This document shows, piece after piece, positions 24,525 through 63,430 of a stretch of 64,000 nt of DNA. The stretch comes from Prorocentrum cordatum (taxonomy: Eukaryota; Sar; Dinophyceae; Prorocentrales; Prorocentraceae): NCBI GenBank assembly GCA_963575745.1, contig CAUYUJ010015706.1:108501-172500 (forward strand), in the 5' to 3' direction. Position 1 is the first letter of the stretch, and the number at the start of each line of letters is the position of its first letter. Below the pieces are notes generated by a model. It saw nothing but the letters and a program-made list of their open reading frames with translations, made no database searches and was not told the origin of the DNA. The translations under genes and the position numbers were made by a program.

Positions 24525-25640
24525 AGGCGGACGGCCTCCTCTAGGGAACCCTCTCCCGATAAATACAAACAGCTTTACGATGGACGAGTTGACGCAAGCA
24601 TTGAAAAACTTAGCAATGGGGAAAGCTGCAGGACATGATGGGGTAGCGCCGGAATTCTGGAGACTGCTACGTATGTCGAGTACAGAATGTGCGAACCTCT
24701 TGGATTTATGTCAACGGTGTTGGGAAAACAAAGATATCCCAGATTCTTGGAGGATTGCCACAGTTGTCTTGCTATACAAAAAAAGGACGCGAGCCTCCCA
24801 GAGAATTACCGCCCGATTTCTCTGTTACCTGCGGGCTACAAGGTACTGGCGTGGATGATCCAAAAACGACTTCAACAAGGAGGAGCCGAAGACAGAATCT
24901 GGCCCACACAATTTGGATTCAGACCACGGCGGAGCACGATAGACGCAATTTCGATCGCGCGCCGCATGTTCGACGCAGCCCAGAGCGCCCCTGAGCATGG
25001 ATTGATAGCTGTATTTTTGGATTGGGCTAAAGCGTTTGATGGAATCAAACATGACGTACTCCTACGAGCTTGGGGGAGGTTTGGGATACCAGAGCCAATG
25101 CTAGCAATAATAGTGGCTATCTATAGGACACGATCTTTCCTTCTGAAAGATCCGGCCGGGGATCCTAGCATCAGGCAACAGAGAGCAAGCATCGCTCAGG
25201 GGTGCCCGCTTTCTCCATACCTGTCCATTATCGTCCAAACCGTCATGTTCTTCGATATCGACCAGGCTTACAAGAACATTGAGACTGATTTTCGTGAGCC
25301 AGGATATGTTGTGTGCAACGACATCTTGTACGCTGACGACACCATGCTTGCGAGTGCGAGCCCGAACAAACTTCAAATGCTTTTGGATTTGACAACCGAT
25401 GATGGAAAGCAATACGGGCTAGATTTGAATTGGGGAAAAACGGTTATGATGAGGATCAAGATAAAGAAGGAGTTGTGCACGACCGTTCCCTCCAACCTGT
25501 CAAACATGTTCAACAAGCTGTATATTTGGGAGGATTGCTACACAGCGGCTCTGCAAGCAAACCCGAAATTACGAGGCGTTTGGGGAAAGCCAAACAGACT
25601 TTCAAAGTACTGGCAAAATGGTGAAATCAAAAAAGCATCA
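24525..25640 (+). pseudogene. LINE E ORF2, reverse transcriptase with intact YADD
   Basis: The RT starts with FTMDELTQALKNLAMGKAAG and HDGVAPEFW, then changes frame near 24800 to PENYRPISLLPAGYKVLAWM. Motif A is AVFLDWAKAFDGI (Asp codon 25020-25022), motif B is ASIAQGCPLSPYL and motif C is DILYADDTMLA (YADD codons 25329-25340). LDLNWGKT follows. The catalytic residues are conserved, but one frameshift lies inside the domain and another follows near 25470. It is a classical YADD-type LINE RT, in contrast to the WADN type found at 50 and 59 kb. Confidence 0.88.
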
Positions 25641-26065
25641 GCAAATTCCGGAAGCTCCGCCTATTCGACGCCATCGTTGTCCCAAAGATTTTGTACACTT
25701 TGGAGTCTTCATGGTGTTATTGCAGGCAGACCGAACACGATTGGACAGCTTCCAAGCGACTTGTTTACGCAAGGTCCTGAAAATACGGCATGCATATGAT
25801 TCCCGCGTGTCGAAAGCAACCGTATTGTCCTTAGCACGGGCAGCGCCTCTCAGCGAGACGTTGCACAAAAGACACATGCAGGCATATGTCAAAATATCCT
25901 AAATGCCAGCCGATAACTTTCTCAAGGATCTTGTTGGCGAGCCCGGTAGGGACATTCCCAGGAAGTGGCGCTCTGTCAGGAAGCGGGGACGTCCAAAATT
26001 GCAGTGGGCAAGTTGCGTATACAAACTACTACAACAAAGCACGGCGAGTTAGATACTTCATGCTT
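25430..26065 (+). pseudogene. LINE E ORF2, C-terminal region
   Basis: After the RT the product shifts frame to read HSGSASKPEITRRLGKAKQT (25430-25624), then LDSFQATCLRKVLKIRHAY (25742 on), and finally WRSVRKRGRPKLQWASCVYK (about 25960-26025). The KRGRP..QW block is the typical end of this class of LINE polyprotein. Several frame changes are needed. The coding end of the element is near 26060; no poly-A tail or target-site duplication was recognised. Confidence 0.65.
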
Positions 26066-46662: not shown

Positions 46663-46695
46663 CCGGCGGTAACCTGGTTGACGGTTTACCGCCGG
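46663..46695. repeat. Unoccupied LINE-P target palindrome
   Basis: A 33-bp near-palindrome with 10-bp perfect arms, CCGGCGGTAA and TTACCGCCGG, and a 13-nt centre CCTGGTTGACGGT that can extend the stem after one mismatch. The left flank contains AGCCCTACGAGGTTC. The same palindrome, split in its centre, flanks LINE-P copies 1 and 3, and the half on the 3' side is present at copy 2. This copy and 61931-61963 are empty sites in opposite orientation. Confidence 0.85.
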
Positions 46696-46699
46696 CGCC

Positions 46700-47547
46700 C
46701 AGTTCCAGCGTCCTGGGGTGGGGGGCTAGTTGACAAAAAATCGACGGAAATGTTGCATAAGTTTGCTCAGTTAAAATTTGATTTCTCAGAACGATTGAGC
46801 TCCCCTTAAAGCGTTAGTGGCGAAGCTAGAAAAGTAATTCCGGCGCGCTGGGGGCTAGTTGGGAAACACATCTCGACATAAGCTTTGTTGTTTGACCTAT
46901 TTAAGTTGAACTTATCGAAATTCAACAAGTCGTTAGAGCTCTAGTTATTCTTTTCTCTTCATATTCGATATTATCCCCGCTCGCCATCTTAATATCAGGT
47001 CGATCGGGTACCTCTTATTGTGAAAGAGCATGTGGGCGGGATCGGCTGTTCGGGTCATCTTGACAGGTGCTGTCGGTTTCTTACGTACATCGAGCTGTAG
47101 GAGAGCTACAGAGCTTGCGTGCATACCTATACCATCTAGACTCATCAGACGCGCTTGTAACAAGTATCTAGATATCTGAACTCGGTCTGCTACCAGAGCT
47201 CGGTCCGCGAAACTATTCGTACTCTGCTAATGTATCAGAAATGCTGATGCGTTTCGACTTAGCTCGAGCTCAGATGAGCTACCGAGCTGTTAGGCACAGC
47301 AATCGCAAGACCATCATCGGGCGCGCTAATCAAAAGTGGTAGCTACCAGAGCTGGCTCCGAAAAACTACACGTATTCCGCAATTTGTTTGAGATGATGGT
47401 GGTTTTCTTGACTAAACTGGAGCTGGAGATGAGCTACAGAGCTGTTCGTCAGAGCAGTCGGAAGGAAATACACAGAACCGGCAGTCTCAAATATCTAGAC
47501 GCCCGAATTTGGTCTGCTACCAGAACTGCGTCGGGGGGGTGGGAAGG

Positions 47548-47621
<74 letters not shown>

Positions 47622-47850: not shown

Positions 47851-47950
47851 TGTCCTCCCCTGCTTCTCCTCCCCCTCCGCCTTCTCTTCTTCACCCTGTA
47901 TCTCCTTTCTTCTCACTCCTTCTTCTCCTCCTGTCCTCCTTCACTGGGGG

Positions 47951-47975
47951 CCGGCGGCAAACCGTCAACCTTGGT
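47951..47975. repeat. 3'-side half of the split target palindrome at LINE-P copy 1, including target-site duplication
   Basis: CCGGCGGCAAACCGTCAACC corresponds to one arm and part of the centre of the target palindrome. The duplicated bases are CAACCTTGGT at 47966-47975, paired with CAACCCTGGT at 55804-55813 at the other end of the element. Confidence 0.75.
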
Positions 47976-48021: not shown

Positions 48022-48363
48022 TCACAGCCTAACGCAGAAGGGGCGTAACAGGCCGAGCGCCTGCAGGACCGCCACCACATCTTTCAGTAAGTGCTTTGCA
48101 GCAAGAAGTTCAGCCTGAGTCACTGCACACGAGGGCGGGAGACTAGAGGCTTCTGAGGCGACACCGCACCACCAGAAGCCACTCGGAGAGGCGGAGCCAT
48201 CCAGATGATTAAGATGAAAGGGAAGCGATGGGAGAATGTACAGATCGAGGACCCAACCACCGCCACAACCCTCAGAGGATCGGCCTCCGTCAAAGAAGCC
48301 TCTCACACCGAGCACGCTCGAAGCACTCATTGTAAATAGCCTGTCATCGATTGTCAAGTGGTC
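48022..48363 (-). pseudogene. LINE-P copy 1, N-terminal half of RNase H placed after the C-terminal half
   Basis: Continues in the same frame after the TAG at 48364-48366. It reads LGVRGFFDGGRSSEGCGGGW, the first strand and hairpin of an RNase H fold with catalytic Asp at codon 48289-48291, and later CAVTQAELLAAKHLLKDVVA, the first helix with catalytic Glu at codon 48109-48111. It ends LRPFCVRL at 48022. In an ordinary RNase H this half comes first; here it follows the GDS- and REGN..AD-containing half. Copies 2 and 3 have the same order. Confidence 0.72.
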
Positions 48364-49731
48364 CTAGCCCCTCCGAGCCATCCAGGTCTTTTCATCAGCT
48401 CTCGCGTTCCCTTCCCGATAAGTCCATTTGGCAATATCACGTCCCCGTGAGGGGGCCCGAACGTGCATGGGCATCTCCACAGACATAAAATAAAGCAAAT
48501 CCTGAATAGCACAAAACGTCGTCGAGCACACATCAGTAGTACATCTAAACAAACAATTAATCCAATTACACATCACAAGAGAGCCCCCCGAGATCTCTAG
48601 AGGTAGACCCTTCGACCCAAAGTCCCACCAAGACCGTCTCTGTTCATTCAGTGCGATTCGTTTTGTAGCCTGTTCCTTCTCCGCCTCCTCCTTCCTACGC
48701 CTCTCCTCCACCGTGAGGTCCTCCGCCTCCACCCTGTAGGGCCCCTTGGGATCTCTGAGGACACAATATTGGAGCACATGCGGCAGGTCCCACATACCCA
48801 GCAGTGCATGAACAAAATATCTCCACCCGTCCTCATCCCAAGTCAAGTTAGCGTACCAATGGGCTCCTCCAACCGTCTCGAACGGGAGCGACCATGGATG
48901 GTAGCCCGCAGGGCGTCCGCCCTCACGGTGTCTGGTGAGCTCTCGGGCTTCCTTCGAATTGAGAGCGCGAATGAAGGCATCCCTCTCCTCGGTCCAAGGC
49001 GACACAGCATGCAGCATGCACAAGCGAGAGAGGGAGTGAGGATGGTACGTCTCGGGCCCCAGATCACACCGTACCCGTCGCCGTTTACATGCAGTGTTCT
49101 CGTACGAGCTGTCCAGGGGAACATAGAGGCGCTGTGGAGGCTGTAGCGAGGCCACAGGGGGGTCGACTCGTCGTCGTTTCTGGGCTCTTTCACGCTTCTC
49201 ACGCATCATCTGGCGTCGGCTAAGCGTGACAGGGGTCGCCTGGGACCCATAGTTGAATACCTGGGAATCCGCTGTGACTGATATTGGAGGCGGCACAAGT
49301 TGTGATCCTTGAAACAGCACAGGGTCGGGCAACGGCAGCCACAGCGACGTCCGCTGGGCGGTGGCACGAACATCTTTGGCCCGGCACCACTGTCGATACA
49401 GAAATAGTTGTGGCAAGCTCGACAGACCAGCCGAGTGCAGGGCACGTCTCGCATGAAGATATACACGCTGCGTGAAAATACTCCAATCCTCACCCGCCCC
49501 CTTTCTCCTCCACATCATATTAGCTAAGAGCTTACCCTCACATTTGTGCAGTGCAGTTAAAGTACTCTGATATGACGTCATACCCTGTGCTCCAAAAAGG
49601 ATCTTGGCACGCACTTTACCGTCGTAGCGCCTGATTCGGCGAATAAAGCGGGATGTCCCGACAACAGTAATACCGCTTCTCATGCCGAAAGGCCCGCTCA
49701 CCGCAACTGATACGATGGAGAACGTCGGCAT
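48364..49731 (-). pseudogene. LINE-P copy 1, post-RT region and C-terminal half of RNase H
   Basis: A 455-codon minus frame. The first part (KCEGKLLANMMWRRKGAGED, then WCRAKDVRATAQRT) matches the post-RT segment of copy 2. The last ~90 residues read LPLEISGGSLVMCNWINCL and RDIAKWTYREGNARADEKTW. These correspond to the strand carrying the third catalytic Asp (GDS in copy 2, here GGS, so lost) and the helix carrying the fourth (codon 48394-48396). No FDGG/AEL half exists upstream of it. A TAG separates it from the N-terminal half in the same frame. Confidence 0.72.
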
Positions 49732-50007: not shown

Positions 50008-51483
50008 CTAATACCATCGGGGGTACAACAGTACCGACATCTCACGCACCATCTTTATGAGCTGGTCAGTGGAGGAGGCACCCAGAATAATATTGTCCGC
50101 CCAGATGGCGTGGGAGAAAACCAGAGCGCCTGCTTGATCCGCGAGGGGAATGCCAATGCCAGCACGACGCCAGTTGTGGCACAAGTCGCTCCACATCACA
50201 ATCGTCTCGCATATCCAGCCCATGGGGGCTTCAACTGAGCCTGCCTTCACACATCGGTCCCATGGTACACCCATGACCTCGACGTCCTGAAATTTGAAAT
50301 CTGCAACACAGTGACTCTGTGGTTCTAATATAGCATAGGCCAAGTCGGGGGGGAACGATGACGCATCCATGGACTCCGAGAGGTTGTTCACCGCCAGGTG
50401 GTCGAAAGCACGCAATACATCCAGGGACGCGAAACAGCAAGAGTGAGACTTACCCCACTCCACACCATGTTGAGCTAACCTCTTCACAACCGCTGTGACC
50501 TCGTGTACCCTGCGCTCACCCGCAAACCCGTAGAGCATACACCCAGGTGTAGTCGATCGCAGATGGGACGCAGCGATGATAATCAAACACGAATGGTACC
50601 ACTTTGATATCACACTAAGAAGACTGAGAGCACGAATTTCTGTAAAGTCGGTGGCGCGCTGGTGCTTGGGCATCAGCGCGATGCAAATAGAACGCCACAC
50701 CGAGGGGGTATCGAACTCGCGGCTAAACAGCTTTCGAAAGGGCTTCAAGATGGAGCAGAGAGTGGACCCGGGCACGCATCGGAGCATACTGGCACTGATC
50801 CCATCCTTCCCCACCGCACGTCCCACTTTGAGCTTCGCACAGGCTCTCATGAGGACCCCCATTGGGATACCATCCCGTCCGAGGCAGCCGTGAGGACCAC
50901 CCGATGTATCCTGTAACCGCCTCCTCCTTTCCTCCAGCATTCCTTGAGTAACACTCCTCTCCTCCTCACAACTGTAATGAGTGAAACCGTGTACACGTAA
51001 AGCCTCCTCCCACTTCAGAACGTCACACGTATCCTCCCCATCCTCATGCAATGCATAGAGATGTGTACGGCACTGTGCACCTGGTCGAAACGAGTATTCC
51101 GTGAGGCGTCGCCTGTGGACTCGACGCTCACGTTGCTTCTCACGACGGGCAGCCTTCATCTCCTCCTCCGAACATTCCCCCGCCTTCCACCTCCTACGTA
51201 CTTCAGTCCACCGAAGACGTGCCTGGATGTAATCCTTACTGACCCGTGGGAGAGTGTCCTGGTAGGTAGGGGAGTGCCCGAACTTGGAGGCCTCCTGGAG
51301 GATATGGGTGCCGATCTCAGCCGGTGTCATTTCTGTCGGTCCGTCACACAGAGTACTGTCGATACTACTGCGCAGCTGCTGCAGAGAGTCCTCGGCACAC
51401 CGCCAGTGGGTGTTGTTGCGAGGGCGCTGCCTGGCAGTCCTTGCTGGCCTGAAAGTCTGCAGAAGTACGAGCGACAATCGCAT
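50008..51483 (-). pseudogene. LINE-P copy 1, reverse transcriptase with WADN motif C
   Basis: A 491-codon minus frame with a complete palm. RAVGKDGISASMLR precedes the fingers. Motif A is SCCFASLDVLRAFDHL (Asp 355), motif B is VKAGSVEAPMGW (415-423) instead of the usual QG.PLSP, and motif C is HAIWADNIILGAS (WADN at 461-464, nt 50092-50103) instead of YADD. Copy 2 independently has GSMEAPMLW and MLWADNFFLF, so these are features of the family and not decay. It synthesises cDNA by target-primed reverse transcription if the family is active. The frame overlaps the endonuclease frame and is joined to it by a frame change near 51470. Confidence 0.85.
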
Positions 51484-52330
51484 GGTCGCTCCACCATGTT
51501 TCTAGCTGCATAGTGTCCTCAGCCATGGCCTCTCGGGGCACCGCCCAAGTGACCGAAGTAGAGGGTAGGTCGACGAACCAGTGTCTCGGTACACACAGAT
51601 AGTCATACACATGTTGATACTGTTGTGCCTCAGGGATATATTTTGTTGACCGCCACGTGGGCCTGCGAGGGCCGTCGAAGGTATTCGCCATCAACAGTCC
51701 CAAGACTCCGATAGCGGTAGTAAGGGCCTCGGAGTAGGCCTGGGAGAACTCGCGGGCGTCCTTTTCGAAACCTCCAGAGGTGCTGCGGGGAGCAAGGGAA
51801 GTACCATCCACACAAGGGCCAGTCACAGGCCACTGCTCATGGAAGACCTCACCCTCCACCTCCACCTGCCCGTCCACCCCCAAGACGACGTCCCTGATAC
51901 CAAACTGCGACTTCAATCGTTGGATAGTCAACGCAACCTCCCTCAGGACACGGTGATACTCGCAGATGGCCGGGAAGAAAGCATCACGGCTCTTTCCAAA
52001 CACATAGTTGTGAGGCAAGTAAACGCTGATGGCAATCATACTGCGAAATATCACAGCACACCATCGGTCGCCTCGACCCGAAGAGATACGCTGATTGCAC
52101 CTCCTAGTATTGTACAGTACGCATGCACGCCTACACACAGAATGCTCGGTATGCCATGACGCCCCAAGATCCGTCAAATGCTGAGCCTCCTGGAGTAATG
52201 CAACCCCAACGCCCAATGTTGAATTCTGAAAACTGCCACGCACAACTTCCTGGCAGAAGAGCTTCCCAAACTTCCGACAGTTCGATGTGGCGATAGATAC
52301 CGCCTGGGTGTCGAGCCAGGCGTCGGGGCC
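51440..52330 (-). pseudogene. LINE-P copy 1, APE-like endonuclease
   Basis: A minus frame of 292 codons with APE-like landmarks in order: TLGVGVALLQEAQHL (LQE), SMIAISVYLPHNYVFGKSRD (VY.P-like), IRDVVLGVDGQVEV at the GDFN position (GVDGQ), MANTFDGPRRPTWRS, YQHVYDYLCVPRHWF (IDY-like) and WWSDHAIV (SDH). It should nick target DNA in the palindrome. It is in the same frame as ORF1 but separated from it by a TAG at 52334-52336. The GVDGQ substitution may be a family feature; the equivalent part of copy 2 is missing. Confidence 0.72.
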
Positions 52331-52333
52331 CCG

Positions 52334-53503
52334 CTACTCGGTGGAGTGCAAGGCTGCCTTGAACTCCGCCAGCTTGAATGTCGAATCGATCCGAAGGAGT
52401 GCCGTCTCATCAACCAACCACTGATCAGCACGGTCGGTCCTGAACGATGCAACACCAGCTCCGTCCGTGTACTGGAGGCTAGGATACGCCCAGACGAACG
52501 TCGTCGGAGGGCCATACGACTCGATACGCACACATCCGTCCACCAAGCTGCTGTGCTTGTAGAAGCACGCCTTGAACCTCCCCTCTGCAGCTACATGAGG
52601 CTGCTTCCATGGGGATCATTCCACAAGGATAGACACACGGCACTGCACAATACGTTTGTACTCCCTGACATCCGGGTCCTGTGCAAACATGCGACCGTCC
52701 TGGAGACACTGCAACCAAACCTTCCTACACTCCCACATCACATCCCGACTCACAGTGGATTTGAAGTGCACCCTGATCCGATACAGTCCGCACGGCTTGT
52801 TAGTATTTGCATTGTTGGTCCGAACCTTGTCGATATGTTGGAGACAGCCTGCCTTCTCAAACAAGCACGCCAGGCAGCGCTGAGCCGCCGCCTCATTGAA
52901 CAACACCTCGGAACGCTGTGAGATATCACGATTGGCACCTTTCGCCCAACCCTGAATAGCGATATAAGTCGGAGTGAACGGCGGACGAGGGACACGTATG
53001 AAGTCTTGCGGCCGTGAAGTCTGGTAGGACACACGTGGGGCACCAACGGTACTCGGGGCACCTGTGGAGCTGTTGGAGCCTGCACGATTCTGGATGGCCT
53101 GCTGGAGTTCTTCAATCTGACGTTGTTGTTCTGCTTGAGACTTCCTGATGTCAACAATATCCGCCTGATTCTGCTTCACTGCCTCCTCCAATGGTTTGAG
53201 ACGATCCTTAAGAGAATTGTCGAAGAAGTGCTGCTGTTCTGAGAACTTGGAGTCCAGGAATGCTGCAATGGAAGCCATGGGATCCGCTGGGGCCCCAGGA
53301 ACCTTTCGAGCCCTCTTAGCATCCTCTGAAGCAACACGTTCGGCAACCGCAGCACAACCCTCCAACTGACTAACTGTGAGTCTGACATTCCCAGGTGCAG
53401 GGGCAGCCAGCGCTCTCTCGAACTCATCTCGCTCCTCCTCTCCGTCCTCACCTCCCATCGGCATATCCTGTGCACCCGTCGGAGTACCCAACACAGCCGT
53501 CAT
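52334..53503 (-). pseudogene. LINE-P copy 1, ORF1 coiled-coil protein with one in-frame stop
   Basis: Start at ATG 53503 (MTAVLGTPTGAQDMPMGG). An acidic N-terminus is followed by a long coiled coil (FFDNSLKDRLKPLEEAVKQN and KSQAEQQRQIEELQQAIQNR), then TPTYIAIQGWAKGANRDISQ and YRIRVHFKSTVSRDVMWECR, an RRM-like arrangement typical of LINE ORF1. A TGA at 52616-52618 interrupts ILVE and SPWKQPHV; otherwise the frame runs to the TAG at 52334. Predicted to bind element RNA and form trimers or higher oligomers. An upstream open extension to 53809 lacks a reason to be coding. Confidence 0.7.
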
Positions 53504-54255
53504 CTGTGGACGTCGACGCTTGGTGTACCGTGTAAGATTGGCAAGAAAGTTGAACTCCGCAACACTCGTCGTGGTGAGCAAGTCGCAAGCACACGTGCAA
53601 TGGAGCAGAAAACTGTAATTCGGGCTCGATCCAACGATACTGCAACCACAACAAAGAGAGAGCACCTGCTGACCTGGAAGAGCACGCCGATGGAACACTT
53701 GTCGCAGCTGAACGACAGATGGCCCCCGCGCGCCCCGCGGATACAGTACGATACACGAGTGTGTAAGCACCTGACCGCACGATGCGGCTCGAGGGGTCCC
53801 CGACGGCAACCTTGGTTTTTGAGTTTGAGTCAGGGCGCGGACAGCTGTGACAGCTGAGCCCTAAGACTCCCAAACGGAGCACAGGGTAGCTAGAGAAGGC
53901 ACCTCTTATCATCACACTGCCGAGCCACTGAGGCATAGGCACCGGAATAGGATGCAGGAACAAGGAAAAGGATGCAACACAACATGTGAGAATGCAAAGG
54001 TGCTGGAACAAGTTAAAGAATGGTGTAAGAGCTGGTTGAAACGCTACCCAAAACGTGTTCCACGGCCATACAATGCCGTTTTACTGCATTGATCAAAGCA
54101 ACAGCCGATCAGCAGCATATGCTTCCACAGACCGCCCTCCAACGAAGAAACCGTGGAGGCCGACTAGTTCATGTTTACGTTGTATATCACAGGCGAAGCA
54201 GAATGAAAGTTAAGTTGATGTCTTGAACAGCGCCAGGCGCCAGTTAAGGCCACAG
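53504..54255 (-). other. Region between ORF0 and ORF1 of LINE-P copy 1
   Basis: No conserved protein segment was recognised in the 750 bp between the two ORFs. It may be an internal untranslated spacer, or the degraded link of an ORF0-ORF1 fusion. Confidence 0.4.
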
Positions 54256-55949: not shown

Positions 55950-57111
55950 GACCGAGTTCAGTTGTCTAGACACTTTGAGCTAGCGCGCCCGTTGATTTCC
56001 TTCCGATCGCTGCGCCAAACAGCGTAAAGAAAACCATGACCATCTCTACAAAATTAGCAGAGTACGAATAGTTGTTCGGCCCCAGCACTGATAGCAGACC
56101 GAGTTCAGGCGTCTAGATACAGCGCGCCTGATTATTTTCTTCCAATTGCCGCGCCAAAACAGCTGCGTAGCTCATCTGCAGCTCGCGTTAAGTCAAGAAA
56201 ACCCACACATCCCCAAAAAAATCGCAGAGCACGAATAGTTGTTCAGCCCCAGCGCTGATAGCAGACCGAGTTCAGGCGTCTAGATACTTCAGACTATCGC
56301 GCCTGATGGTGTCATTCCCATTGCTGTGCCGAACAGCTCTAGCTCATCTGCAGATCGAGTTAAGTAAAGAAAAGCATCACCGTCTCGAACAAGTTAGCAG
56401 ACTACGAATAGTTGTTCGGCCCCAGCACTGATGGCACACCGAGATCAGGCGTCTAGATACTTTGAACTAGCGCGTCTCATGATTTCCTTCCAATTTCTGT
56501 GCTGAACAGATCTGTAGCTCCAGTTAAGTCGAGGCAACCATCACCATCTCCAAAAAAAAACAGAGTACGAATAGTGTTTCAGCGCCATCGCTGACAGCAG
56601 ACTGATTTCAGGTGTCTAGATACTTTGAACTAGCGCACTTTGAACAGCTATGTATCTCATCTGCAACTCAAGTCAAGAAAACCATCACCATCTCCAAAAA
56701 AAACTAGGAATAGTTGTGCGGCGCCAGCGCTCATCATCTCCAAAAAACTAGAGTACGAATAACTTCGCGGACCTAGCTCGAGTACCAGACCGAGTTCAGA
56801 CACCTGGATACTTTGGACGAACGCGCCGGACGATTCCAGATCGATTAGGTGCGCCTACCAGCTCTGTAGCGAGTTAAGCACAGAAAACCGACAGCACCTG
56901 TCAAGATGACTCGAAACAGCTGATCCCGCCCCAGTGCTTTTTGGCAGAAATAGGTACCCGATCGACCTGAGATTGAGACGGCGAGCGGGAATAAGATCGC
57001 AGATGAAGAGAAAAAATAATAGAGCTCAAACGAATTGTTGACTTTCGAGAAATCGAATTGAGACAAGTCAAAAAACGAAACTTCCGTCGAGATTTTTTTG
57101 CCAGCTGGGAG
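55950..57111. repeat. Satellite array S2, inverted relative to S1
   Basis: About six diverged units of 150-185 bp contain CAGACCGAGTTCAGGCGTCT, GATACTTTGAACTAGCGCG, AGTTAAGTCAAGAAAACCA and ACGAATAGTTGTTCGGCC. The right end (from about 56845) has CGACAGCACCTGTCAAGATG and GGTACCCGATCGACCT, the inverse of landmarks in S1. It lies between LINE-P copies 1 and 2. Short frames inside are not genes. Confidence 0.8.
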
Positions 57112-57131
57112 CCGGCGGTAAACCGTCAACC
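57112..57131. repeat. 3'-side half of the split target palindrome at LINE-P copy 2
   Basis: CCGGCGGTAAACCGTCAACC, the same arm and centre found at 47951-47970 and in the empty site at 61931. Element sequence starts immediately after it. The matching half at the other end of copy 2 was not found. Confidence 0.8.
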
Positions 57132-57179: not shown

Positions 57180-57257
57180 CGCTCGATGTCCTGCCACAAC
57201 TGGCGCATTGCAGATTCGCAATCCCAGGAGCTCCGAGAGGGGGCACTACAGGCACAG

Positions 57258-57522
57258 CTTAACTATGTCCTGTACTCCTCTTAGAAGCTGAGTCGCTGCA
57301 CAGAGTTCAGCGGACGTGATAGAGGCGTGGAGGGGAGGGGAGAATGAGGGAAAAAGCCACATCTTCATACCACTGCTGGGCACAAGATGGGGGAAAAAAA
57401 GAGCCAGGGAGGACACTACTCACGCACACGTCACATACCCATCCTGCACCAACTCCTTCAGTCGATACACCCCCGTCAAAGGCACCTCAAATCCCCGACA
57501 TTGTGATAGTATTCTGTTGACA
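57258..57522 (-). pseudogene. LINE-P copy 2, N-terminal half of RNase H after the C-terminal half
   Basis: Downstream of the stop of the 57523-58464 frame the minus strand reads GAFDGGVSTEGVGAGWVCDV (catalytic Asp codon 57475-57477) and, after a frame change near a T-run at about 57390, ITSAELCAATQLLRGVQDIV (catalytic Glu codon 57306-57308), ending KLCL and a stop. It aligns with the same half in copies 1 and 3. Confidence 0.7.
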
Positions 57523-58464
57523 TTATTTGATAAACCTCCACTCGAAAACTCGCTCCTGTCGTCCTCTCCTCGCATTCCACGTCATCCGATCAGCCCTTGT
57601 GTTGCCTTCTCTGTACACCCATTTCCAGATATCATGGCCTGCGCTCGGTGGAATAATCCCCGATGTCGTTGTAAGAAGATATAGCAAGTTAGATACATCG
57701 GCAACTGCATTCATACAAGTCAGATTGCTAGTAGTATACAAGCCTGTCAGCCAATTTACAACCACTTGAGAGTCCCCACTTAACTCCATAGAAACAAAAC
57801 CTGGAAAAAATTCCCAAGTGGGCTGCCTTTCATATAGTTTTGCCAATCTCCTGGAGGTCTCGATGTTCTTGGGGTGCAAGGGGTCCGTGGACATCTCCTC
57901 GTCCTCCTCCTTCCTCACATGTATGTTGCTGTTTTTAAGCACGGAATACGGGAACATCTGCTCGTAGCGTTCAAGCTCTCGGAGTGCCTGACAGCATAAG
58001 TCTGTCCATCCTTTCTCCGACCACTTAAGATGGCCTCTCCACAAGAACTCACCTCCCACGGATTCGAAGATGCTAGCCCGGGAGTGGAAAGCCAGACGAT
58101 GAGCACCGTTCGAACGACCGCCGCTGCGACTGATCTCACGTGCCTGCTGGGTTCCAAGATACTCGATAAACGTATCCATCTGCTGCGTCCAAGCAACATT
58201 CCCCACGAGCATCAGAGTACGAGCCTGCAGGTGCGCGTTGAGGATGTCCGACTTCTCCGTCCCCAGGGCTCGCGGAGCAGGCTTGTGACCAAGGTTTTCT
58301 TTTAGCCTCTGAGTGCTGCCTGAAAGTTGGGTCCTCGTTTTCTTCTGACTCGCACTTTGGGTTGGGTCCCCCTCATCATGACGTCTGCTTCTGGCGCCTT
58401 GTATTCCCTCCTCCTTCGCCTCCTTCATCATCCTCGTATGTAGTTGTCGCCGATTCTCTGGCAT
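57523..58464 (-). pseudogene. LINE-P copy 2, post-RT region and C-terminal half of RNase H
   Basis: A 313-codon minus frame. The last 90 residues read GFVSMELSGDSQVVVNWLTG (third catalytic Asp, codon 57772-57774) and IWKWVYREGNTRADRMTWNA (fourth Asp, codon 57589-57591). ESVGGEFLWRGHLKWSEKGW upstream aligns with ETVGGAHWYANLTWDEDGW in copy 1, a conserved linker of unknown function. No FDGG half lies upstream of it. Confidence 0.75.
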
Positions 58465-58476
58465 TGGGGCCTCCTC

Positions 58477-58830
58477 CTACATCTCCTCCTGCATGCTGTT
58501 GACGTGTGGGGACGTGGAAGCAGTTGAACGGCAGGGTAAAAGGGGTGGAGGTGGTGGAAGTACATGACATAGGGAATCAGAGATATCCTTCGCCCACTCC
58601 CACTGTTTGCGAAGTACTCTTTGAACGAGACTCTCTCGCCCTGTCCGATGAAGCAACGCTCTCCCTGCTCGGACCCTTTGCGTTAAGAAAAGAAACCAGT
58701 TTTCATCCCGTCGTTTCGACCGCCACAACATTTTGGCCAATAACCCTCCCTCCCTTGCGTGAATGAACTTGAGGCTGTTGGAGACTATCGCGGCCCCTTC
58801 GACACCATAAAGAAAGCACGCTTGCACACA
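58477..58830 (-). pseudogene. LINE-P copy 2, post-RT (thumb-like) segment
   Basis: The minus frame reads IHAREGGLLAKMLWRSKRRD and LQRVLRKQWEWAKDISDS-like residues that match KCEGKLLANMMWRRKGAGED and YRQWCRAKDVRATAQ in copy 1. It connects the RT to the C-terminal region with a frame change on each side. Confidence 0.6.
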
Positions 58831-59177
58831 ATCTTTTTGCTGAGCGGCAGGGACCGATCATAGTAGTAGCTTTTATTACACCGGAATGCTTTCTCAGCTA
58901 GCTCCCACCTGTGATGCATGTCACCATGTGCCCGAAAACGTTTGATCCTGACCCCCAAGACGTCCATGACTTGCACGTGCGGTAATTCAACAGCTGGATC
59001 TATTTTGTCGATAACCAAGCTACCCTCAGCATCTGGCGATATAGTGTTCATAAACATGAGTGACTCCTTTTTCCAATCAAAGCCGTGTCGCCTCAACGCC
59101 GTCGTCATCTCTGTGATCATTATTTCCAGCTGGCCATCGGAAACTGCAAATAAAAAAAAATTGTCAGCCCACAACAT
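58785..59177 (-). pseudogene. LINE-P copy 2, reverse transcriptase palm end with WADN
   Basis: Starts at MLWADNFFLFAVSDGQLEIM (WADN codons at 59160-59171), followed by RRHGFDWKKESLMFMNT and HVQVMDVLGVRIKR. The frame change from 59214-59894 lies just before motif C. It supports the WADN motif independently of copy 1. Confidence 0.8.
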
Positions 59178-59213
59178 GTTTGTAATTTTCCACTCGTTTG
59201 GCGCTCCAACTGT

Positions 59214-59894
59214 TCACAGAGGGTACCCCAGGCCACGCTCAAACCATCCAGTACACACCGGTTCAAAAATCATGATGCTGACGAGGGCCCACAACATTGG
59301 GGCTTCCATCGATCCAGTTCTGATACAATTCTCCCAAGGAATGTTGGACGTCTCGATCTCCTGAAAACGAAGTGTGGCCACGTTATTGGTATATCCTTCG
59401 AGTACTGCATATGCCAAATTAGGGTCGATGTTGGAAAACTTCATAGCCTCTGCCGCACAAGGTATGGTGAAATTGTCGAAGGCTCTGGCGACATCAAGCG
59501 ACGCCCAAAACAGCGAGTACGATTTGCCCCACATGGCCGTGTGCCTCACAAGGTTCTTGAGGCCACTCGTCACCTCATGGGTCCTCCTTCCAGGCATGAA
59601 TCCATATAATTGGCAGTGCTTATGGCCATCAATCGATCTGACATGCCTTTCCAAAAGCTGTGCTAGACAGCTGCTATACCACTTGCTGAATACACTTAGA
59701 AGTACAATGGCTCGTGTTTCTGCGAAACAAAGGGCCCCATTCTTTTTGGGGGGTAACGTTACACAAAGCATTCTCCATTCTTGGGAAGTGACAGAGCTCC
59801 TGGCAAAGAGCTTCTGAAAGGCCTGCAATATCATACATAAGGATGTCCATGGTAAAGCTTTGAGCAGGGATGCACCGACACCGTCCGCTCCCAC
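59214..59894 (-). pseudogene. LINE-P copy 2, reverse transcriptase fingers and palm
   Basis: The minus frame contains MGADGVGASLLKALP, TLPPKKNGALCFAETRAIVL, FMPGRRTHEVTSGLKNLV, motif A FWASLDVARAFDNF and motif B IRTGSMEAPMLW. Each block aligns with copy 1. The frame ends at the point where motif C continues in the next frame. Confidence 0.82.
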
Positions 59895-60890
59895 TGCCCC
59901 CCCCCCCCCATCTTTAATCTAGTCGTCCTGGCCAGAAGCAATAGCCCCATGGTAATCAGATTTCCACAGAGAGATGTAGCCTCGGCCTCCTGGAGTAACT
60001 TCCGAGCACACTCATCATTGGCAATATTCTGGGAGCCGTCCGCATATCGATTTAACCCACGCTGTTGGAGTGCCCTTTCCCAAGCTATCCTATCCTCCGT
60101 CTTGACACCTTCAACCATGACGTGCGTGATGTGCTTACGTGTCTTCTTTCCGTCCCTAAATTCGAACTTGACCTGGCGACTACGAAAAGGTCGTCGCACT
60201 TTGTTCCAAATCCGCCGACTCTGCCGAAACTCCTCAATCGTGATCTCCCCCCTCTTCCACTGTTTGTGTTTTTGATAGTGTTGGTTCCTCACCTCCACCT
60301 CCTCCTTGGTCATCGATGGGGGCCTCAGGGGGTCCTTCAGGAAACGATGATGCTGTTCTCCTGGTAGCCTTTGCCTGGACCCCGACATCGACCTCGTCCT
60401 CAGTGGAAATCACGTCTGCCCCCCCTCCGCCTGCAAACGGGTGAGATGTGGGAGCCGGGGCGTGATCAAGACGCCTTGCCACAACCTTCTCCATCCCTGG
60501 CGGCACTCTCCACTTGGCAAAGGAAGGAATAGCTGGCACCGCCTTTCGAGATCTCATCTTACTCAATTGGGGCACATTCATCTCCAACAACTTGTGATCA
60601 CTCAAGAGCATGACGGGCGTGTCCGATGGCATGTTACATGATAGAATCCAATGTTTAACAACAGCAAGATGCGGCCAACAACGAGGGATGCATAAATATT
60701 CGTACACGTGCCCATATCCATACTGGGAACGCCACGCACATGCACTCACGTCCGCCCGAGATCCCCTTCGATCCCCAAAGGTGTTGGTGAGCTGGAGTCC
60801 CAGGGCGCCCATAGTGGCACACAAAGCGTGCAGACCTGAGCGACTCTGCGAAGGTATTTCTCTTCAGGCTCTGCGACAAAAACCAGGGGA
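59895..60890 (-). pseudogene. LINE-P copy 2, endonuclease tail and EN-RT linker
   Basis: Frame 60234-60824 reads MGALGLQLTNTFGDRRGSRA and GYGHVYEYLCIPRCW, aligned with the end of the endonuclease of copy 1, then LLSDHKLLEMN (SDH). Frame 59831-60388 carries the basic linker (KQWKRGEITIEEFRQSRRIW) that precedes the RT, equivalent to RRRWKAGECSEEEMKAARRE in copy 1. Confidence 0.65.
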
Positions 60891-60899
60891 AGATGAGGT

Positions 60900-61930
60900 G
60901 GCCGAGGACGGACACTAAGATATTGGACGTCTGGCTGGAAAAGGGAGGTGCGGATCGAGAGATTGCTCTGAGAGTTGACTTTCTTGAGGGGCGCACTTCT
61001 GTGAAACGGGTTAAGGCCTGCGGGTGCGTGCAGGCTTTGTTTCCCGCGAGCGTTCAGTGATAGGTCATCATTGACCTGCCTTTTTCCTTGTACGTTGAAT
61101 GGCGCGCAGCTCCAAGAGCCGCTCGCTTGGCCGACTGACCACTTGACTTCCAGCCGCACCTATTGGCCGAACACAGAATAGCAACGTCCATGTAATGTGA
61201 ACGTCGACAACAACTAAGCGTCGGGGTGGTGCATGCCAAAAGCACGAATGTCAATAGCACGTAAACACAGCATCACACACCAACAAAATAACATCAATAT
61301 GACAACATAGCACCAACAGCAAATATCCAACACAGCACACAATCATGAGCATATCAGCGCTCATTGTGTCTCGTCGTCATAGTCATCGTAACTGTTCCGT
61401 TGTGGCTTAATCGCCCTTTCGGGGAGGGGCCTTGGAGGGCTCCTGGGGGGCTTCTGTCGGGGGGCTTCCAGGGGGTCCCCCGAGGTATCTCGGTGTCATC
61501 TCAGGGTTGCTTATTGGGGCCGTCTTGGGGGCCCTCTTGGACCACTCAAGTGGCCTATGGGGGTCGTGATGTGCTGTCTTGAGTCTTGAAGCAATGCTGT
61601 GGGGTCTTAGGGCCATCTAGGGCGGCATAGAAGCAATCTTAAGCCGTTCCGTGGTCCCTTGTCCTTCATGCGTTTTCGGGCATTTGCCTGCGGGTTATAA
61701 GTTTGTCTTGTTCGTCGTGCAACCGTGCATATCCAGTTGTCATCAAGGGTAGCTGAAAACTCGAGAAATACATTTTTCGTTTTCATCGAAAGTCCGTTCC
61801 GCCAAGTGTTTCGATAGTCATACTGCAGCTACGGACCAGAGAATTGCACTGGCAGGCGCGACACAACCCACTACAGGTGCGAAAAATACCGTTTCTTGAA
61901 ACGAATGTTCAAATATCTCACAACTGGGAT
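60900..61930. other. Unassigned region between LINE-P copy 2 and the second empty target
   Basis: No gene recognised. 61410-61580 has GGGGGCTTCCAGGGGGTCCC-like units resembling the inverse of the AGGCCCCCAAG arrays in copies A and B. 61785-61910 resembles 62440-62560 and 63545-63660 (shared TTTTCATCGAAAGT and CACTACAGG landmarks), so it belongs to the dispersed target-associated repeat. Confidence 0.4.
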
Positions 61931-61963
61931 CCGGCGGTAAACCGTCAACCAGGTAACCGCCGG
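61931..61963. repeat. Second unoccupied LINE-P target palindrome, inverted orientation
   Basis: CCGGCGGTAAACCGTCAACC followed by AGGTAACCGCCGG, the reverse complement of 46663-46695 except one base. The right flank AAGCCTCGCAGAGCT is the inverse of the AGCTCTRCGAGG flank seen at other sites. Confidence 0.88.
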
Positions 61964-62747: not shown

Positions 62748-63430
62748 TTTTGCGTCTTTGCTGGGACCATCTTGGCCACTGAGGCCAGGTCCAACGAAGT
62801 CTCAGGCGAATCAGAGCCTCTTATACGTCACGCAAGCAGTCAACTCTTATTTCACACCAGCAAAGCTGTTGGAATAAAGAGAATCAAAAGCCAGCAATGA
62901 CACAATCAAACGCAAAGAACACAAATGATAATCGAAGAACAAATAAACAGCGAAGCTGTTAGAATATACAAGAAGACAACATGAGAGATGAAACAATGTG
63001 CGAATTATCGCTGCGAATGATCAAAGAAGGTCTGTACAACCTGTGGGAGCACATCACAGATGCGCTCCGCCGCTGATAACTCCGCATCTGTGACCGCGGC
63101 ACTTGGTGGCAGACACCAAGCCGCAAGATACACACCCTTGAAAGTGATGTCGGTCCGGGAGAAGATATACTTGTTACGCAGACCTTCTGTATCCACACGC
63201 CACAGGCACTTCCGCGGCTACAAACACCCCCATCAAAGCCAGCTCTGATAAGGCAAGGAGTAAAACACTGAGATTCGAAATCGCTGAGGTAAAAGAAATC
63301 GGCGTACATATGGCCCTGACGGGCCTGATGGGTCAGTAAGTCAGCCCTCTGATTCCGTCCCCGAAAAGAATGAGAGAAGAAGTCACGGCCAGCCTCTGGA
63401 GGCCTCACCGAGTAAGCATCCTGTATCTCT
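62748..63430 (-). mobile_element. LINE-P copy 3, 683-bp 5'-truncated insertion with 11-bp duplication
   Basis: Bounded by the exact 11-bp duplication GCCAACCAGAT and by both arms of a diverged target palindrome. It contains only the end of the RNase H region and the 3' UTR. EIQDAYSVRPPEAGRDFF then SHSFRGRNQRADLLTHQARQ (fourth catalytic Asp, codon 63340-63342) is followed without a stop, 36 codons later, by IRAGFDGGVCSRGSACGVWI (first catalytic Asp, codon 63232-63234). After a frame change AAVTDAELSAAERICDVLPQ carries the catalytic Glu (codon 63080-63082). Near the 3' end GGACC..GGCC..GGCC..GGTCC (62763-62795) can fold into a stem. Typical short LINE insertion. Confidence 0.82.

Follow-up and report, generated by a model that had tools for sequence, protein, structure and literature searches.

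A 64,000-nucleotide stretch of the genome of the dinoflagellate Prorocentrum cordatum (contig CAUYUJ010015706.1, positions 108,501 to 172,500; hereafter the window) contains three copies of a long interspersed nuclear element (LINE) whose second open reading frame (ORF2) ends in RNase H motifs standing in swapped order. Along this chain the predicted structural elements follow each other as beta4-beta5-alphaE-beta1-beta2-beta3-alphaA, instead of the type 1 order beta1-beta2-beta3-alphaA-beta4-beta5-alphaE. The question raised by the locus is whether this arrangement is an accident of decayed copies or a property of the element itself. Our analysis indicates that the ORF2 C-terminus of this LINE family is very probably a type 1 RNase H that has undergone circular permutation in nature, and the permuted order appears to be genuine, ancient and maintained in a functional state.

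Order of the two halves in the window, its genome and its relatives

The original prediction, made from the letters of the window, held that in all three copies a half with the GDS and RAD motifs precedes a half with the FDGG and AEL motifs. Half-domain profiles for the two (h1 and h2, made from 12 sequences, 11 from outside and the twelfth being window copy 1) gave the following matches, listed with independent E-values (i-Evalues).

48364..49731, minus strand: copy 1, C-terminal part of ORF2, 455 codons open in the ORF list; the stop at 48364-48366 separates the RNase H halves
48367..48615, minus strand: copy 1, first RNase H half, beta4 to alphaE (GGS ... REGNARAD), h1, 4e-34
48310..48366, minus strand: copy 1, linker between the half-profile matches
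48052..48309, minus strand: copy 1, second RNase H half, beta1 to alphaA (FDGG ... AELLAA), h2, 6.4e-28
48022..48024, minus strand: copy 1, ORF2 stop codon behind alphaA; the EukProt relative P0001 and the protein P0002 end at the same residue
48574-48588, 48394-48417, 48283-48294 and 48097-48114, minus strand: copy 1 motifs GGS, REGNARAD, FDGG and AELLAA
57559..57795, minus strand: copy 2, first half, h1, 2.3e-36
57249..57495, minus strand: copy 2, second half in two frames, h2, 3.7e-17 and 1.7e-6
57763-57777, 57589-57612, 57469-57480 and 57294-57311, minus strand: copy 2 motifs GDS, REGNTRAD, FDGG and AELCAA
63313..63435, minus strand: copy 3, first half, partial (profile positions 42-82 of 83), 1.3e-14
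63023..63255, minus strand: copy 3, second half in two frames, h2, 8.4e-12 and 2.6e-12
63226-63237 and 63068-63085, minus strand: copy 3 motifs FDGG and AELSAA

Both halves were detected in each copy, the first always upstream of the FDGG half, and since the i-Evalues of the eight pieces range from 2.3e-36 to 1.7e-6 the swapped blocks are not due to chance. Motifs and half profiles on the minus strand therefore bear out the predicted order, with two corrections: copy 1 reads GGS in place of GDS and has lost the beta4 acid, and the first half of copy 3 is partial. Position 48022, from which the feature had been counted, is the ORF2 stop codon on the minus strand and hence the end of ORF2. One stop lies between the halves of copy 1, and a frame shift lies inside the FDGG half of copies 2 and 3; the RAD and FDGG blocks of copy 3 do share one open frame, as claimed.

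With the copy 1 region as query, the window's own genome returned 5,256 first-look candidates, of which 150 were scored, all with E < 1e-43. Eight regions were fetched for reading, and six of them (loci L039-L043 and L046) hold an open ORF2, of 1,456-1,717 codons in the first five and 1,262 in L046, with frames counted stop to stop. In all six, a reverse transcriptase (RT) motif WADN is followed by both halves, and 4-5 residues separate the last profile match from the stop; beyond these ORF2s the fetched stretches showed no additional first half in any frame. Open copies in the same genome thus keep both halves in the same order, which upholds the claim that the order does not stem from joined frames or decay, and their stops speak directly against the possibility that the FDGG half begins a second copy or a downstream element, as ORF2 ends there.

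Across the 38 loci L009-L046, which were fetched with the native-order query and of which L009 is window copy 1 and several overlap or are duplicates, the halves form 43 pairs in first-second order and none in the reverse order, and two FDGG pieces stand alone. Thirty-six of the 43 pairs are stop-free, 30 of these with distinct DNA. Because these loci came from a native-order query, a control was run with the halves joined in normal order (second half, 83 residues), and among the 150 scored of its 5,767 candidates no normal-order copy was found. Its rows cover one half and extend no more than 16 residues past the join, except for a single row covering 39-168; this is a 5'-truncated copy whose flank was aligned and whose own FDGG half follows in permuted order. 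Most FDGG rows of the control cross one TGA, which in the copy read is the stop directly behind alphaA.

Relatives outside the genome were sought in 5.8 billion proteins (in one round scoring was limited to the 7,992 candidates with the most words in common), and 39 distinct related proteins were retrieved besides P0004. They come from metagenomes, from EukProt entries labelled Pyramimonas sp. AAC.1 and, in two cases (P0026 and P0036), from P. cordatum. At a half-profile i-Evalue < 0.01, 27 of the 39 contain both halves, seven the first only and five the second only. All 27 two-half proteins, 11 of which were used in profile building, place the first half before the FDGG half. The distance from RAD to FDGG, predicted as 25-40 residues, is 32-40 in the 26 proteins in which both motifs were measurable (including the genome copy P0041).

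Two minor observations belong here. All EukProt relatives (P0001, P0003, P0009-P0011 and others) are labelled as coming from the green alga Pyramimonas sp. AAC.1 and have running numbers that reach into the millions; the label may reflect either horizontal spread or another organism in the sample. In addition, four loci (L010, L030, L043 and L044) contain two permuted RNase H domains that diverge from each other and are only a few kb apart, and different families of this LINE therefore adjoin one another.

Identity and predicted fold of the domain

By profiles, the first half corresponds to the C-terminal half of RNase H. Positions 62-120 of Pfam RVT_3 match residues 14-83 of P0016 above the curated cut-off, with FDGG beginning later, at residue 113. 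In a search of Protein Data Bank (PDB) sequences with a seven-sequence profile, RNase H chains came out on top, with a best E of 0.0055 in native order; with the same profile in normal order the best E was 0.0005 and the alignment spans the join. A ten-sequence normal-order profile gave RNase H chains as its top five PDB matches (best E 0.00075), and in a profile comparison with eight RNase H domains of this genome that have the normal order, the value went from 6.7e-4 in native order to 4.5e-5 in normal order. The whole ORF2 found only unrelated PDB sequences, with a best E of 0.48.

Structure prediction, a check that the original prediction had called for, was made with AlphaFold2 and returned a single compact domain with the strand order beta4-beta5-beta1-beta2-beta3, the halves packed within one chain in swapped order. 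These halves superpose, with low Z, on opposite halves of RNase H1 structures (3u3g 1-69, and 4e19 67-133 and 92-199). If the model is right, this is the same type 1 RNase H fold, permuted: the break in the chain would lie between alphaA and beta4, and a linker would connect the former C-terminus, behind alphaE, with the former N-terminus at beta1. With Foldseek, neither model had a PDB match at E<=0.001 (3aly reached E 0.23 with probability 0.80 for model 2), and a viral structure library likewise gave nothing at E<=0.001, with two annotated RNases H at E ~0.1.

Ahead of beta4, where an unpermuted alphaA would stand, residues 100-122 of P0027 form a conserved amphipathic helix that recurs at the same place in relatives. 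In the truncated copy of row 39-168, it was this pre-beta4 stretch that the alignment paired with alphaA in the normal-order query. The idea that the helix is a vestige of alphaA gained no support from a register test over families (p=0.32).

Several results weigh against a permuted, working RNase H and should be set beside this evidence. The FDGG half on its own found no relative among PDB sequences, the matches being unrelated (best E 0.34). When 16 family proteins were scanned in their native order, one passed a Pfam RNase H cut-off (RVT_3), five more matching below it. In chain-order structure searches unrelated folds reach Z up to 5.2, against 3.4-3.8 for RNase H, and the beta5 region of model 1 has a predicted local distance difference test score (pLDDT) under 50. 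Finally, the residue six before N in the RAD-containing half, which we take to be the position of H124 in E. coli RNase H, is the usual H in 14 and W in 13 proteins of alignment A6 (described below), so that about half have W for the usual H; among the genome domains it is W in 35 of 43.

Catalytic residues, selection and alternative readings

We assume the D-E-D-D placement of E. coli RNase HI, with one acid each at beta1, alphaA, beta4 and alphaE. Alignment A6 comprises 29 proteins, 28 from outside and one window read-through, and counting the rows with a letter at each site the acids are present at beta1 in 26/27, at alphaA in 25/26, at beta4 in 15/17 and at alphaE in 25/27. The corresponding figures for the 43 genome domains are 41/43, 41/41, 32/41 and 42/43. 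In P0027, an intact environmental protein whose C-terminal domain spans about 190 residues, the four acids correspond to D141, D202, D240 and E301. These positions fall on the expected predicted secondary-structure elements, and the acids are nearly invariant across families that are ~30% identical. By simple counting on non-independent copies, the ratio of mean non-synonymous to mean synonymous change (dN/dS) is 0.34 in the copy 1 family (24 copies; halves 0.31 and 0.31) and 0.11 in the long-ORF family (six copies; halves 0.10 and 0.13); between-family values are (near-)saturated and were left unused. On these ratios both halves look to be under selection.

LINE RTs synthesise cDNA at the nick in the target, and in elements that encode an RNase H this enzyme clears the template RNA. 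The permuted domain is C-terminal to the RT within ORF2 and by analogy most likely does likewise. We propose that it would retain the two-metal D-E-D-D site and cut the RNA strand of the RNA:cDNA hybrid that the adjacent RT produces in target-primed reverse transcription, and that this removal of RNA would aid second-strand synthesis. A marine and dinoflagellate LINE clade with an active permuted RNase H1 that has its full catalytic set, is selected, was fixed before the ~30%-identity split, exists in very many copies and is coupled to a WADN RT is, on balance, the likely overall picture.

Of the readings that differ from this, the one that survives best holds that the permuted fold has lost its cutting activity and now acts as a structural or hybrid-binding module. 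It draws on the W described above and on the beta4 acid, which is absent from nine of the 41 genome domains with a letter there; however, the copies lacking that acid belong to the decayed copy 1 family, and both the near invariance of the acids across distant families and the low dN/dS of the halves in the long-ORF family (0.10-0.13) argue for cutting. We consider loss of activity unlikely. A domain swap, in which the halves pair between two ORF2 molecules and each site is built from two chains, could be permitted by the linker length and is compatible with a single-chain prediction, but AlphaFold2 packs both halves in one chain, and we judge this arrangement distinctly improbable. Still less probable is another alpha/beta fold (CinA-like or HcgF-like) bearing RNase H motifs by chance, a reading for which the argument is that CinA, HcgF and PelC outrank RNase H in the chain-order structure searches. 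That the FDGG half is a neighbouring start and the swapped order an accident of decay or of a junction is scarcely credible: all three window copies are indeed broken and LINE copies crowd together in some loci, but this reading is already refuted, unless the ORFs concerned are assembly artefacts, by open ORF2s that hold both halves in one frame, stop shortly after the last match and have no first half downstream, and the same order recurs in metagenome and P. cordatum proteins.

We therefore return to the circular permutant as the preferred reading. It may have originated when an RNase H domain was duplicated in tandem and the outer halves were then lost, and the origin of the permutation becomes testable through normal-order sisters. 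Few folds have been studied as thoroughly as RNase H, and a natural permutant at this scale would reveal which chain breaks evolution tolerates. Permutation would also explain why domain scans overlook the RNase H of these LINEs, as Pfam detects half of it at most, and the permuted domain could serve as a marker for a LINE group in genomes with poorly described repeats.

Related systems and the remainder of the window

The best PDB profile matches are LC11-RNase H1 (3u3g), Sulfolobus tokodaii RNase HI (3aly) and Halobacterium salinarum RNase H1 (4e19), which differ from the domain described here in being single-domain cellular enzymes of normal chain order. Taken by themselves, these matches suggest a kinship with the archaeal-like RNase H (aRNH). 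Nearest in kind, going by the available part of PMC5348765, are L1 elements with an aRNH in plants (Ta11) and oomycetes, which also have an RNase H at the ORF2 C-terminus and, according to the same part, a CCHC motif upstream of the aRNH. The main texts of PMC5348765 and of a classification of the RNase H-like superfamily (PMC3985635) contain no word starting with 'permut'. Within the P. cordatum genome, RNase H domains with TDG-AEL-DS-GN.AD blocks (L001-L008) have the normal order in all eight domains read. SymbioLINE-Dnmt of Symbiodinium is likewise a dinoflagellate LINE, differing by a DNA methyltransferase (DNMT) in ORF1, and the accessible portion of its description (PMC5890265) does not mention a permuted RNase H. 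The portions at hand of the P. cordatum genome paper (PMC10666404) and of a review of dinoflagellate genomics contain no word starting with 'RNase H'. More broadly, the full-text literature searched yielded no account of a retrotransposon whose RNase H is a natural circular permutant and did not contain the phrase 'circularly permuted RNase H', although most subscription journals and Repbase lay outside the search and an earlier description is possible; in the sole paper combining 'RNase H' and 'non-LTR retrotransposon' with 'circularly permuted', the last term describes a scaffold.

The other parts of the elements in the window are as follows.

52616..53809, minus strand: copy 1, ORF1, 397 codons open in the ORF list
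51473..52297, minus strand: copy 1, N-terminal part of ORF2, tblastn with P0041, 42% over 283 residues
50008..51483, minus strand: copy 1, RT part of ORF2, Pfam RVT_1 E 0.0012, under the cut-off; motif C WADN at 50092-50103
57421..60830, minus strand: copy 2, remains of ORF2, tblastn with P0041; WADN at 59160-59171

Similarity of copy 1 ORF1 to the open genome ORF1 P0042 extends to 52343 (tblastn, 39% over 316 residues, 52343-53278), and an open ORF1 stands just upstream of ORF2 in L040 (417 codons) and L041 (428 codons). Upstream of the RT, ORF2 shows by eye an apurinic/apyrimidinic endonuclease (APE)-like pattern, and from this motif we take 51473..52297 to be an APE-like endonuclease; that part has no Pfam match, a scan of 51365-52243 being negative. 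The RT of the open ORF2 in L040 matches RVT_1 with E 2.4e-6 and 27.9 bits, against a cut-off of 29.6. Copies 1 and 2, the six open ORF2s (L039-L043 and L046) and P. cordatum P0036 all have WADN as the RT catalytic motif where [FY]xDD is usual, a second active-site oddity of the LINE family. Another LINE-like RT, at 24687-25799 on the plus strand, has the usual YADD motif at 25329, and the ORFs scanned beside it gave no RNase H match.

A short motif resembling GGTTTACCGCCGGCTCCC is common to 47946-47964, 57107-57127 and 61926-61945 on the minus strand and 46681-46700 on the plus strand; two of its four sites follow copies 1 and 2, and the motif may represent a 3' end that these elements, or related short ones, have in common. 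On the plus strand, 72 consecutive A occupy 47548-47619, ~400 bases past the 3' motif of copy 1.
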